Part shown: piece after piece, positions 73 through 32,884 of the stretch | How the letters are laid out: each line of letters opens with the position of its first letter | Position numbering within the stretch: the stretch's first letter is position 1 | Source of the DNA: Acidobacteriota bacterium | GTDB taxonomy: Bacteria; Acidobacteriota; Vicinamibacteria; Marinacidobacterales; Marinacidobacteraceae | DNA: 64,000 nucleotides | Assembly (NCBI GenBank): GCA_022828085.1 | Contig: JAJEIY010000088.1 | Location: 1 to 64,000, forward strand | Direction: 5' to 3' | Notes under the pieces: generated by a model | The model's input: only the letters and a program-made list of their open reading frames with translations | Told to the model about the DNA's origin: nothing | Database searches by the model: none | Translations under genes and position numbers: made by a program

Positions 73-279
73 CCGGCTTTGAACGCCGGTCTTCGACCGG
101 CCCGCGCGGTGCTCCGCACCGCGCACGTCGTGACGCCGACCCGCGGCATGGCTCTCTCCTTCGGAGCCGATCGGAAGCGAGGGCACGTCCTTGTCCCGGC
201 GTCCCATGGGAGCGAACAGCGACACGTCGCCTGCGGCCCTTCGGGCCGCGTGCCGGTCGGAGACCGGCGTTCCAAGCCG
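73..279. repeat. Inverted pair of palindromic repeats at the window edge
   Basis: The interval 1-302 holds no convincing gene. Two copies of a palindromic repeat face each other. The left copy (73-126) has a core reading roughly TTGAACGCCGGTCTTCGACC, followed by a second hairpin GCGCGGTGC-TCC-GCACCGCGC. The right copy (233-279) is the reverse complement of the core, preceded by the hairpin GCGGCCC-TTC-GGGCCGC. The same core occurs at 19.4 kb and 20.0 kb in this window, so it is a dispersed family. About 105 bases between the two arms show no recognisable content. Confidence 0.75.
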
Positions 280-17348: not shown

Positions 17349-18226
17349 ACGTGAATCCGGCGCCTCGCTTCCTCTCCTTCGTGAAGATGTCCGGCGCGGG
17401 GAACGACTTCGTGGTCGCGGACAACCGGGATGGCTCCATCGCCGAGGAAGACAAGGCCGGACTCGCCCGGCGGGCGTGCCGCCGCAAGATCGGGATCGGG
17501 GCCGACGGCCTGATCCTGATCGAGCGCGACGGGGGGCAGGACGCCGACTACGTGATGCGGTACTTCAATGCCGACGGCAGCGAGGGAGAACTCTGCGGCA
17601 ACGGGACCCGCTGCGCCGCGGTCTTCGCCCGGGAGATCGGGGCGGGTGGAATCTCGCAGCGGATCGCTACGCCGGCGGGGGTGCTGCGGGCCGACATCCT
17701 GTCTGGTTCGGCCGCCGCGGCGACGGTGCGGGTGGCGATGGCGAAGCCGAGTCCGATCCGCCGCCTCCGGCTGTCCGACCTCCCCGGCGGCGAGGCCGAC
17801 CTGTTCGCGTTGGAGGTCGGCGTTCCGCACGCCATCGAAGTCGTCCCGGACGTCGGAGTCGTGGACGTGGACCGCCGGGGCAGCGCGATCCGGAGGCATT
17901 CCGTTTTTCCGGCCGGCGCGAACGCCAACTTCATCGCGCTGGACGAAGGTTCGGGAGAGATCCGGCTGCGCACCTTCGAGCGCGGCGTCGAGGCCGAGTG
18001 TCTAGCGTGCGGGACGGGAGCCACGGCGGCCGTCACGGTGGCGCACCGTCTCTTCGGTTGGCCGGCGGCCGTCCCCGTCCGGGTGGCGAGCGGCGACCTG
18101 ATCCAGATCGACTGCGCCGGGGAGGCGCCGCTGATGGAGGGCCCGGTCACCCGGGTCTTCGAGGGCGCTTTCGGTCTTGTCTCCGGGCCCACGGCCCCCC
18201 GGGCGGAGCAAGCCGCAGGCCGATGA
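17345..18226 (+). CDS. Diaminopimelate epimerase
   Basis: This 293-residue protein converts LL- to meso-diaminopimelate for lysine and peptidoglycan synthesis. The two catalytic cysteines are visible: Cys84 in GELCGNGTRC and Cys222 in CLACGTGAT. The N-terminal FVKMSGAGNDFVV is diagnostic. The ATG at 17345 overlaps the selD stop by four bases. The central region (about residues 110-170) is diverged compared with enterobacterial DapF, but all key elements are present. meso-DAP use agrees with a Gram-negative type envelope. Confidence 0.93.
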   Translation: MNVNPAPRFLSFVKMSGAGNDFVVADNRDGSIAEEDKAGLARRACRRKIGIGADGLILIERDGGQDADYVMRYFNADGSEGELCGNGTRCAAVFAREIGAGGISQRIATPAGVLRADILSGSAAAATVRVAMAKPSPIRRLRLSDLPGGEADLFALEVGVPHAIEVVPDVGVVDVDRRGSAIRRHSVFPAGANANFIALDEGSGEIRLRTFERGVEAECLACGTGATAAVTVAHRLFGWPAAVPVRVASGDLIQIDCAGEAPLMEGPVTRVFEGAFGLVSGPTAPRAEQAAGR

Positions 18227-19308
18227 CGCGGTTCGGCGCCCGCCGTCCGCTCCTGGCCGCCGCGTTCGTCTTCGGAGTCGTGGCCGCCGGCTGCGACGAA
18301 GGTTCGGACGGCCCGTCCACCTCGCCGACGGCTCCGGACCCGGCTCCCGCGCCCACCGCGCCGCCCCCCGTTCGCTGCGCCGAGGAAGGGCGCGTCCTCG
18401 AGTTCGGATTCTTCGCCTCCTACGACCCGATCAGTTACCGAGGTGATCCCGACCCGGAAGCGCCGGCCTTCGACGAGCACCGCGGCTACGAAGCCGATCT
18501 CATGAGCGCGCTCGAGGCGATGGACGGCGCCGGCCTCTCCTTCAACCGCCGCGGCATCGACGTCTGGCCGGGAATCTGGCTGCTTCCGGCCACCCCGGAG
18601 TTCGACCTCGTGGGAGGTGGCATCACGATCCTGGAGGAACGCACCCGGGACGCGTCCGGCGCCCCCGCGGTCGCTTTCACGTCGGGTCACATCGTGTTCC
18701 GCCACTCGCTCCTCGTGCGCGGCGCCGACGCCGCGACCCTCCGCGAATACAGCCATCTGACGAACGAGGCTCGCGTCGGCGTCTCGGTGGAGACGACCGG
18801 CGAGTCGCGCTTCCTGCAGATCGTCGGACTTGTCGATGACGGCGGGGTGCTGCTGGCGGGGACCAGCGTCACCACCCCCGAAGGGATCGTCGTCGCGGAC
18901 GGCACCGAGGCCTTTCGCATCGCCGCGGGCGGGTCGTCCGCGAACCTGGCCGGACGCAGCCACCTGGAGCCCCCGTCTCCCGGCTATCCGCAGGTCGTCT
19001 TCTTCGGCGCCGAGTCGCCCCGGTCGGAGCAACTGATGGCGCTGGCCACCCGGGGAGTGGACGCGCTGGCGGGCGACGAGATCGGGAACCGCGTCGCGGA
19101 AGCGGCCTCCGACGGCTTCTTCGTGGTGACCGCCCTCGACACGGAGGTCGAGCTCGGCGGATTTGCCCTCGACCAGAGCGAGGAAGCTCTCCTCGCCTGC
19201 CTCGACGACAAGCTGGACTACCTCACCGACGAACGGGACATCGGCTACGCCGAGTGGCTGGACAACCCCTCGGTGTTCCTGGAACGCGCCGAGGCCTGGT
19301 CACCGTAG
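18223..19308 (+). CDS. Orphan solute-binding lipoprotein (SBP family 3-like)
   Basis: This 361-residue lipoprotein (AAGC lipobox, Cys24) has a Pro/Thr-rich linker and then a periplasmic-binding-protein type II fold: GYEADLMSALEAM, then FDLVGGGITILEERT, and a long C-terminal lobe. This is the pattern of family 3 (amino-acid type) binding proteins. No permease or ATPase gene accompanies it. Its ATG overlaps the dapF stop (ATGA), so it is translationally coupled to dapF. It may bind an amino acid or act as a sensor; the ligand cannot be read from sequence. The inverted-arm repeat element starts 13 bases after its stop. Confidence 0.75.
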   Translation: MTRFGARRPLLAAAFVFGVVAAGCDEGSDGPSTSPTAPDPAPAPTAPPPVRCAEEGRVLEFGFFASYDPISYRGDPDPEAPAFDEHRGYEADLMSALEAMDGAGLSFNRRGIDVWPGIWLLPATPEFDLVGGGITILEERTRDASGAPAVAFTSGHIVFRHSLLVRGADAATLREYSHLTNEARVGVSVETTGESRFLQIVGLVDDGGVLLAGTSVTTPEGIVVADGTEAFRIAAGGSSANLAGRSHLEPPSPGYPQVVFFGAESPRSEQLMALATRGVDALAGDEIGNRVAEAASDGFFVVTALDTEVELGGFALDQSEEALLACLDDKLDYLTDERDIGYAEWLDNPSVFLERAEAWSP

Positions 19309-19323
19309 GGGCGCAAACGGCCT

Positions 19324-19448
19324 GGAACGCCGGCTTCAGCCGGCACGCGGGCCGCAGGGCCGCAAGCGCGCAGGGCTCCACCTCCCGATCGCGCCACCGG
19401 CTTGGAACGCCGGTCTCCGACCGGCACCGCGGCGCTCCGCGCCGCGCA
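19324..19448 (+). repeat. Left inverted arm with two palindromic cores
   Basis: The arm contains a first core with hairpin GCCGGCT-TC-AGCCGGC, a linker ending GCGCCACCGGCTTGGAACG, and a second core with hairpins GCCGGTC-TCC-GACCGGC and GCGGCGC-TCC-GCGCCGC. It is the reverse complement, with scattered changes, of 19966-20092. Confidence 0.8.
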
Positions 19449-19484
19449 CGTCCTGACCCTGGGCGCCCAGGTGGCGTGCCGGCT

Positions 19485-19920
19485 TGGAACGCAACTCCCC
19501 GCATTCACGGGGCCGGGGAACGGAAGCTCCCCGCAATGGCGCAGTGCGGGGAGCCGGTGGGCGTCAGCTATCCGCATTCGGGGAGCCGGCGGGCGTCAGC
19601 TATCCGCATTCGGGGAACCGGTGGGCGTCAGCTATCCGCATTCAGGGAGCCGGTGGACGTCAGCTCCCCGCATTCGAGCAGCCGGTGAGCGCAAGCTACC
19701 CGCATTCGAAGCGCTGGAGGGCGTCAGCTATCCGCATTCAGGGAGCCGGAGGGCGTCAGCTATCCGCATTCAGGGAGCCGGAGGGCGTCAGCTATCCGCA
19801 TTCGTGGAGCCGGTGGGCGTCAGCTATCCGCATTCGTGGAGCCGGTGGCCGTCAGCTACCCGCATTCGGCCTGCCGGCGGGGGCAAGCTCCCCGCATTCG
19901 CGGAGCCGGTCGCGAGAGTT
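19485..19920 (+). repeat. 32-bp tandem repeat array (about 12-13 units)
   Basis: Units such as GGTGGGCGTCAGCTATCCGC recur every 32 bases: the CGTCAG position falls at 19562, 19594, 19626, 19658, 19690, 19722, 19754, 19786, 19818 and 19850, with degenerate units at both ends and one 9-base insertion near 19535. There are no unique spacers, so this is not a CRISPR array. The period is not a multiple of three, and open frames through it are by-products of missing stop codons. Confidence 0.9.
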
Positions 19921-19965
19921 CCCCGGGCCAGGAGACAGAACGATTCCGCAGGTCCGCGCCGCGCC

Positions 19966-20092
19966 GTGCGCGGTGCGGAGCACCGCTGTGCCGGTCGGAG
20001 ACCGGCGTTCCAAGCCGGTGGCGCCATCTGGAAGTGGAGGCCGACGCGCTCGCGGGGCTGCGGCCCGCGTGCCGGCTGAAGCCGGTGTTCCA
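19966..20092 (-). repeat. Right inverted arm with two palindromic cores
   Basis: This is the reverse complement of the left arm: hairpin cores GCGCGGTGC-GGA-GCACCGC, GCCGGTC-GGA-GACCGGC and GCCGGCT-GA-AGCCGG in mirrored order, with the same linker between them. It ends about 40 bases before the stop of the methyltransferase gene. Confidence 0.8.
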
Positions 20093-20132
20093 AGCCGGCG
20101 GCGCCTTCGCGGCTGTTGGCCGACTTACGCGG

Positions 20133-20729
20133 TCAGCCGCGCCGCCGCCCGATCCACCGTGGCACCGCCGACTGGTACTCCCGGTAGGCGTCGCCGTGGT
20201 GCGAGAGCAGGTATTCCTCCTCCAGCCGCACCTGGACCTTGATCCCGATCCAGGCGGCGACCAAGGCGCCGAAGCTGAGGGCGTTGGGCGCCACCAGGAA
20301 GAACCCGCCCACCCCCGTGAGCAGACCGAGATAGATGGGGTTTCGCGACCACGCGAAGAGCCCGTGACGGACGAGGGCCGTCTTCTCCGAAGCATCGATT
20401 CCCATCCGGAAGGAAGCGGACATCTGGGCCTGGCCGATACCGATCCACCCGATCGCGATCGCGGCGACGATGGCGCCGGTCCGGTGAACGGCCTCGGTCT
20501 CGAGGTACTGGATGGGGACCAGCCACGGCTTCACGCCCGGCGCGAAGGCGTACATCAGAGCGATGAGCAGCCAGGTCCCGATGCTCGCCTTCAGAACCCG
20601 GCCCGTCAGCCCGTACACCGAGTCGTCCGCCTTCAGCTTCACCGGGTTGATCCCGGTTCTCCGGCGAACCAGCACCGCCCGCACCACGGTCATCCCGTAG
20701 AAGGTCAGCAGCAGGACGAGCAGCGTCAT
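20133..20729 (-). CDS. Isoprenylcysteine carboxyl-methyltransferase-like membrane protein
   Basis: This 198-residue polytopic membrane protein has the C-terminal SAM-methyltransferase signature of the ICMT/PEMT group: HGLFAWSRNPIYLGLL, then EEEYLLSHHGDAYREY. There are about five hydrophobic segments. Bacterial members methylate lipids or unknown small molecules; the substrate cannot be assigned. It is the last gene of the minus-strand selA-thiSG-nth run and starts 8 bases after the flavoenzyme stop. Its 3' end abuts the composite repeat element. Confidence 0.8.
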   Translation of the reverse strand: MTLLVLLLTFYGMTVVRAVLVRRRTGINPVKLKADDSVYGLTGRVLKASIGTWLLIALMYAFAPGVKPWLVPIQYLETEAVHRTGAIVAAIAIGWIGIGQAQMSASFRMGIDASEKTALVRHGLFAWSRNPIYLGLLTGVGGFFLVAPNALSFGALVAAWIGIKVQVRLEEEYLLSHHGDAYREYQSAVPRWIGRRRG

Positions 20730-32682: not shown

Positions 32683-32884
32683 ACTCGTCCAGAACGGAAC
32701 TGACAGAGAACGGGCCGGCGGCTGGGAACGCCGGACAGTCCTCCCGGTGGGGGCGCCCAGACCGGTACGCGCCGCGCAGATCGCAACGCTCACCGGCCTC
32801 AGGGCGCCGCCGGCTTGGGATGTTGAGCTACGACCGGAGGACGGGCCGGCGTTCCTTTATCGTCGCGCGACTCCGTTTACGGAC

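Follow-up and report, generated by a model that had tools for sequence, protein, structure and literature searches.

Introduction

Bacterial tandem repeats of fixed length and variable sequence have, to our knowledge, no accepted explanation. In a 2021 study, only 20-21 and 52 nt are represented among such constant-size repeats, which are non-coding with periods that are not multiples of three, comprise several same-length families per genome with short words common to families, and vary in copy number between relatives, the 52-nt class being mainly from Firmicutes (Subirana and Messeguer, PMC8161180). REPINs and RAYT/REPtrons are a different type of pertinent system and feature high-copy intergenic palindromes, inverted doublets of these enclosing a short hairpin spacer, and a RAYT gene with such palindromes on its flanks (Bertels and Rainey PMC3116915; PMC3733652). 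TIRYT/TIRtron repeats, as far as the available text of the second of these goes, involve tyrosine transposases of Acidobacteria with inverted repeats on their flanks, and repeat families are formed by some of them (PMC3733652). One partial precedent for an array within inverted ends is the BrickBuilt MITE of Porphyromonas gingivalis, a spacer-free tandem array, intergenic and of narrow host range, with short IS5-type ends and a single 23-nt unit, dispersed as leader-array-tail copies (PMC4596501). The literature searched yielded no 32-nt repeat class linked to REPs.

The locus considered here can be compared with each of these. It is in a 64,000-nt stretch of DNA, termed the window, from an Acidobacteriota bacterium (GCA_022828085.1, contig JAJEIY010000088.1, positions 1 to 64,000 of the forward strand), whose genome is designated G000. 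All the listed properties of constant-size repeats are shared, but the period is 32 rather than 20-21 or 52 nt, the host is from Acidobacteria rather than mainly Firmicutes as for the 52-nt class, and the arrays are physically associated with REPs, of which there is no mention in the available part of PMC8161180. The high-copy intergenic palindromes, their inverted doublets and a RAYT flanked by them are as in REPINs; however, in contrast to those of PMC3116915 and PMC3733652, the REPs here lack GTAG and have two hairpins per unit, and inside the doublet lies a long tandem array where those systems have a short hairpin spacer. Tandem arrays are present here and are not described in the available account of TIRYT/TIRtron repeats (PMC3733652). 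In contrast to BrickBuilt, the arms are REPs and the unit sequence differs by locus (PMC4596501), and dispersal of array together with inverted ends in the BrickBuilt manner was not found for the window composite. The first-pass annotation of this DNA was nevertheless too strong in calling the layout non-standard, as in BrickBuilt, too, inverted ends enclose a minisatellite (PMC4596501).

Layout of the locus and identity of its arms

A convergent intergenic gap is filled by two inverted arms with a 32-nt tandem array between them. On one side a gene for a predicted 361-aa lipoprotein with no Pfam match (18223-19308, + strand, the start being estimated from protein length) has its stop, at 19308, about 2 nt ahead of the left arm, and on the other the convergent gene, whose product is isoprenylcysteine/phospholipid methyltransferase-like (20133-20729, - strand), has its stop at 20133. 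Inverted arms, each of two palindromic cores joined by a linker, had been claimed beforehand and are present, slightly longer than described: the left (19310-19450, +) and the right (19965-20105, -) are 141 nt each, 88% complementary, and about 514-515 nt apart. Each comprises two tandem REPs about 30 nt apart plus linker, the arm repeat being GGCTTGGAACGCCGG...CCGGCAC and a second hairpin, with its two tandem copies 80 nt apart. A covariance model places REP 1 of the left arm, with two hairpins, at 19318-19367 (+) and REP 2, with two perfect hairpins, at 19398-19449 (+; 73.6 bits; DNA fold z -3.4). In the right arm REP 2 is at 19966-20017 (-; 72.4 bits; DNA fold z -2.9) and a partly decayed REP 1 at 20048-20097 (-; 52.6 bits). 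Between the arms, an isolated REP head, GCCGGCTTGGAACGC, without hairpins (19478-19492, +), runs straight into the first unit of the array (19493-19938, +), whose approximately 13 units, degenerate at the edges, are of subfamily a1 (CCGGTGGGCGTCAGCTATCCGCATTCGGGGAG). The linker from array to right arm (AGAACGATTCCGCAGGTC..., 19939-19964) is recognisable in genome G004, which has arms without an array at this position.

That the arms are ordinary RAYT-type REPs follows from covariation in their hairpins, their genomic copy number and the presence of the same repeat beside a RAYT. Both hairpins are kept by compensatory changes in aligned copies (96% of cells paired, with 39 double changes, vs 21-39% paired in a control with partners slid 1-3 columns), and the arm model matches at least 150 copies in its own genome, with 207 matches in 1.24 Mb of it. 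The sole Y1/RAYT gene of that genome, at G000:C83 (L033; NF047646, 94.9 bits, the profile cut-off being 80 bits), has REPs of the arm type on both sides, and the window arms match them; a suggestion that the arms are of the REP-associated (TnpA_REP) kind, to be checked by seeking a transposase flanked by the same arms, is thus borne out. RAYTs are present in 10/10 family genomes examined, including two from other genera. The GTAG tag of classical REPs is absent, the hairpin foot being GGCTTGGAAC. The window arms are therefore ordinary dispersed REPs, and their two inward-facing pairs are in REPIN-like order around an interior of about 500 nt of array plus linker in which the array folds no better than shuffles. 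A plain REPIN for comparison, an unremarkable pair of inverted REPs lacking an array, is at 74-126 (+) and 229-279 (-) of the window. In some REPs (window 32719-32781, L096, L073, L081) a short sequence, either CCAGTCCTCCCGGTGGGGG or the reverse of it, is inserted in the loop of the first hairpin.

The 32-nt array

The claim that a 32-bp tandem array of different sequence lies between the arms was also sound. Tandem Repeats Finder reports 19547-19910 as period 32 with 11.4 copies, 84% matches and 0% indels, and lag-32 self-similarity extends over about 19488-19938, giving about 11-13 head-to-tail units. A blind scan of every lag from 12 to 80 in 60 own-genome stretches plus the window (1.24 Mb of 3.57 Mb) found four regions for lag 32 vs a mean of 0.14 for other non-multiple-of-3 lags, the mean being computed with lags 31-33 and 64 left out; lags 53 and 64, also non-multiples of 3, gave two regions each. 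Within the third or so of the genome that was scanned, no tandem period other than 32 is strongly over-represented among those not divisible by three, and with at least 150 genomic matches to the arm model neither component is a product of chance. Separately, two arrays of 53-nt period are present at G000:C49 (112.2-112.8 kb and 113.3-113.8 kb; L181 8226-8760 and 9318-9752), the first built on TATCGACCGGA with a REP just upstream, facing it.

The four lag-32 regions are the window, C7 at 49.3 kb, C90 at 83 kb and C69 at 37 kb, and C29 and C1 have further known copies. Sequence differs by locus, with a1 in the window, a3 at C7, a3 passing in phase into a6 at C90, and a6 at C69, while congeners add a2 (GATATCGATGGGTGCAGCCGCCCGCCGGCCCC), a4 and a5. 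One dominant non-coding repeat length with several sequences in one genome is thus shown by the period-32 arrays of C49, C7, C90 and C69. Mixed arrays keep phase, both in the change from a3 to a6 at C90 and in an a1-a3-a1 array in G004. Pairwise unit similarity between subfamilies is weak, and only a joint frame test is convincing for a 32-nt frame common to all six. In that test, for which consensus units were picked by eye, 8 of the 10 subfamily pairs not involving a1 align best in one register (p<1/1500), where random genomic 32-mers given the same treatment in 1500 trials yielded a mean of 0.9 and a maximum of 5 pairs. Thirteen of the 32 columns are at least 5/6 identical across the six subfamilies, the null maximum being 11.

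What the array does is a separate matter from how it arose. It may be a set of protein-binding sites for a nucleoid scaffold or regulator, with a period of three helical turns under selection and the REPs mere site markers, a reading regarded as unlikely overall though the most credible of those set beside the favored account given below, with which it is compatible, as it concerns array function. Across 256 a1 units, the blocks CGG, AGCT and CCGCATTC are about 90-99% conserved and the positions interspersed with them 40-75%; the array folds no more stably than shuffled sequence does (z +1.0, +1.7) and gives no sign of base-pair covariation; and the same idea has been proposed for 52-nt repeats (PMC8161180). 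However, subfamily sequences differ at the same site, so that a single protein must tolerate them, and rare (recent) variants are not clearly depleted at conserved relative to variable a1 positions, leaving selection and shared ancestry not separated. A potential hairpin of the array unit (GCTCCCCG-CATT-CGGGGAGC), perfect-looking in a few units, was discarded on the same lack of covariation and the same folding scores, and no Rfam match to the array region was found even at E 1. A coding repeat or CRISPR-like locus can in effect be dismissed. Open frames do cross parts of the array, but 32 is not a multiple of three, TGA-bearing units occur, no spacers intervene between units, and Rfam finds nothing; the array sequence itself contradicts it.

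Association of arrays with REPs

Every period-32 array met by the blind scan touches a REP or an isolated REP head: that in the window has REPs on both sides and a fused REP head, the array at C90 a REP head and a REP, that at C7 a fused REP head, and that at C69 a REP 31 nt away. By comparison, a random intergenic position is within 30 nt of a REP with a probability of about 0.05, and within 90 nt, 0.12, figures that use approximate gene calls and are to be read with the provisos that an array has two edges and that the window, being the finding itself, is not independent. Orientation is also uniform. Across the genus, the hairpin side of the REP is toward the array in 12/12 distinct site-array combinations with a REP within about 160 nt (the window, C29, C1, C7, C90, C69, G003 C37, G002 C91, G004 C77, site A a2, G002 site B and the C31/C40 site), a count compiled by hand from REP-model matches. 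Several arrays start at a truncated REP head without hairpins. The pairing of 32-nt arrays with REPs is real and recurrent.

Could the two nonetheless be accidental neighbors, REPs and arrays both piling up in convergent gaps and REPs inserting independently beside arrays? Most REPs have no array, the arrays of L124 and L125 have no nearby REP, and these sites also gather integrase islands, IS21-like fragments and small genes, all of which would suit such coincidence. Against it stand several loci at which arrays are fused to isolated REP heads, the uniformly inward orientation, and REP adjacency well above the intergenic background, which make it improbable. The first-pass annotation had allowed that the composite might be accidental if the arms were ordinary dispersed REPs inserted independently, and ordinary dispersed REPs they are, or if arms and array never occurred together elsewhere, which they do, both at other loci and in congeners. 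An array is, however, not obligatorily tied to REPs, given L124 and L125 and that several other arrays run into contig breaks.

Orthologous sites

Throughout, the assemblies are drafts and the named genomes MAGs, in which assembly may have collapsed copy numbers and joined some sequences wrongly. Comparison of empty and filled versions of the window site, which the earlier annotation had proposed, reveals a range of alleles. G001 is near-empty, with about 20 bp between flank matches; G004 has the inverted arms and right linker with the array absent; and in G002, G005 and G006 the site is occupied, in the opposite orientation, by a REP head joined to an array of another subfamily, a2. G003 (C39) and G007 (C34) share the composite, shortened by 4 and 3 units, and their edge units match those of G000; the distance between arms is 387 and 419 nt, respectively, which differs from the 515 nt of G000 by 4 x 32 and 3 x 32. 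In both, inserted DNA interrupts the second hairpin of REP 1 in the left arm (G003:C18:1-3268 with C39:1-580, L100 and L035; G007:C94:1-172 with the C34 end, L101 and L034). The G003 insert opens with a gene for a tyrosine integrase (398 aa; Phage_integrase, Arm-DNA-bind_3), G004 C48 (L043) has a similar island end, and a REP hairpin may serve as attachment site for inserted islands.

Genomes also differ at a second site (G000 C31, G004 C40, G005 C191 and others), with plain REPINs, head-array-REP alleles and array-only alleles in alternation. The REPIN of G005 is a plain one, G007 has a REP head, array units and a reverse REP with outer boundaries equal to those of the G005 REPIN, and other congeners have array plus REP, or array alone. 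Site B (G000 C29) has a1, a4, remnants or nothing, depending on the species. Arrays are also accompanied by other sequences. Genes for small coiled-coil proteins (105-148 aa) with one apparent membrane segment are beside or inside arrays in five congeners (L094, L098, L130, L131, L046, L038); several share an upstream motif, CTTCGACTTTTCCACATTG, and their only matches are weak and CCDC90-like. End fragments GGCGACATCTAAAACTGGGCCAC, which we take to be IS21-like, interrupt or border arrays at L038, L039, L043, L045 and L046.

The proposal that the composite is one non-autonomous unit, with a RAYT or other transposase recognising the outer REPs and moving arms and array together, was not supported. 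In its favor are the arms inverted at its two ends, the intact RAYT that the genome has, the near-empty site in G001 and a second arm-array-arm layout at C90. However, no whole arm-array-arm unit was found at a non-orthologous place in the own genome or in congeners, the only other copies of the whole composite being the orthologues in G003 and G007; array loci elsewhere have different arms, other linkers and other array subfamilies, and often just one arm; and G004 has arms without array at the very same site. Movement of the composite as a whole is accordingly rated as quite improbable.

Distribution

Among named genomes the array pattern is mainly in Acidobacteria MAGs (JAJDUD, JAJEFG, VXNL, JAPPGX, JAJDVI) that, from isolate labels, would be of sponge origin. 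It was not found in the two RAYT-bearing genomes of other genera among the ten from the family, and the 32-nt minisatellite superfamily has so far been seen only in one genus. With regard to a phage or plasmid origin, viral contigs, plasmids and phages gave no match. In Gastranaerophilales MAGs (L049, L051, L057, L060, L069), short arrays built on another 32-nt unit (CTAAAATGCGGACAGCGCCGCCTGCTTCGCTG) are dispersed, but this unit aligns with a1-a6 no better than chance and was rejected as a relative, and a Pseudovibrio match outside Acidobacteria is not an array. The end of a contig from a Gammaproteobacteria MAG (L064; VYDD01000414, 1-70) consists of two a1-type units beside an antitoxin-like gene, which may be due to misbinning or transfer.

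Origin of the arrays and significance

On balance, the favored account is that of a REPIN-like element in a convergent gap, with a 32-nt minisatellite in its interior, the composite having probably been assembled locally and inherited rather than transposed whole. The REPs would have spread by ordinary RAYT-mediated dispersal. The array starts, as the loci above show, at a REP head stripped of its hairpins and occupies the hairpin side of the REPs. Its interior gains or loses whole 32-nt units with both edges fixed, as orthologue comparison shows, and the simplest cause would be slippage of units or their unequal exchange. The simplest account is a local one, in which REP heads inside REPINs would be the places where arrays originate or lodge, with whole-unit changes coming later.

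The same length with different sequences beside REPs across the genus points to an unexplained rule fixing repeat length. Retention of 32 while sequence varies by locus is probably due to in-register recombination of units together with a constraint on length, perhaps imposed by a DNA-binding protein that reads three helical turns per unit, a tentative suggestion in both its parts. Possible causes of the length are, in order of preference, a protein spanning three helical turns, in-register recombination, and production by the REP machinery. The last, in which 32-nt arrays are REP/RAYT products with units added in 32-nt steps from the REP head left after cleavage, is a very doubtful proposition. 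If it were true, the fixed length would reflect the enzyme complex and the variable sequence local templates, a new repeat-generating process that might explain other constant-size repeat classes.

A 32-nt class that belongs to another phylum, and whose position and orientation are tied to REPs of the RAYT type, provides a concrete handle on the fixed-length question, with RAYT presence, REP heads and array length being comparable across complete genomes and testable in vitro.
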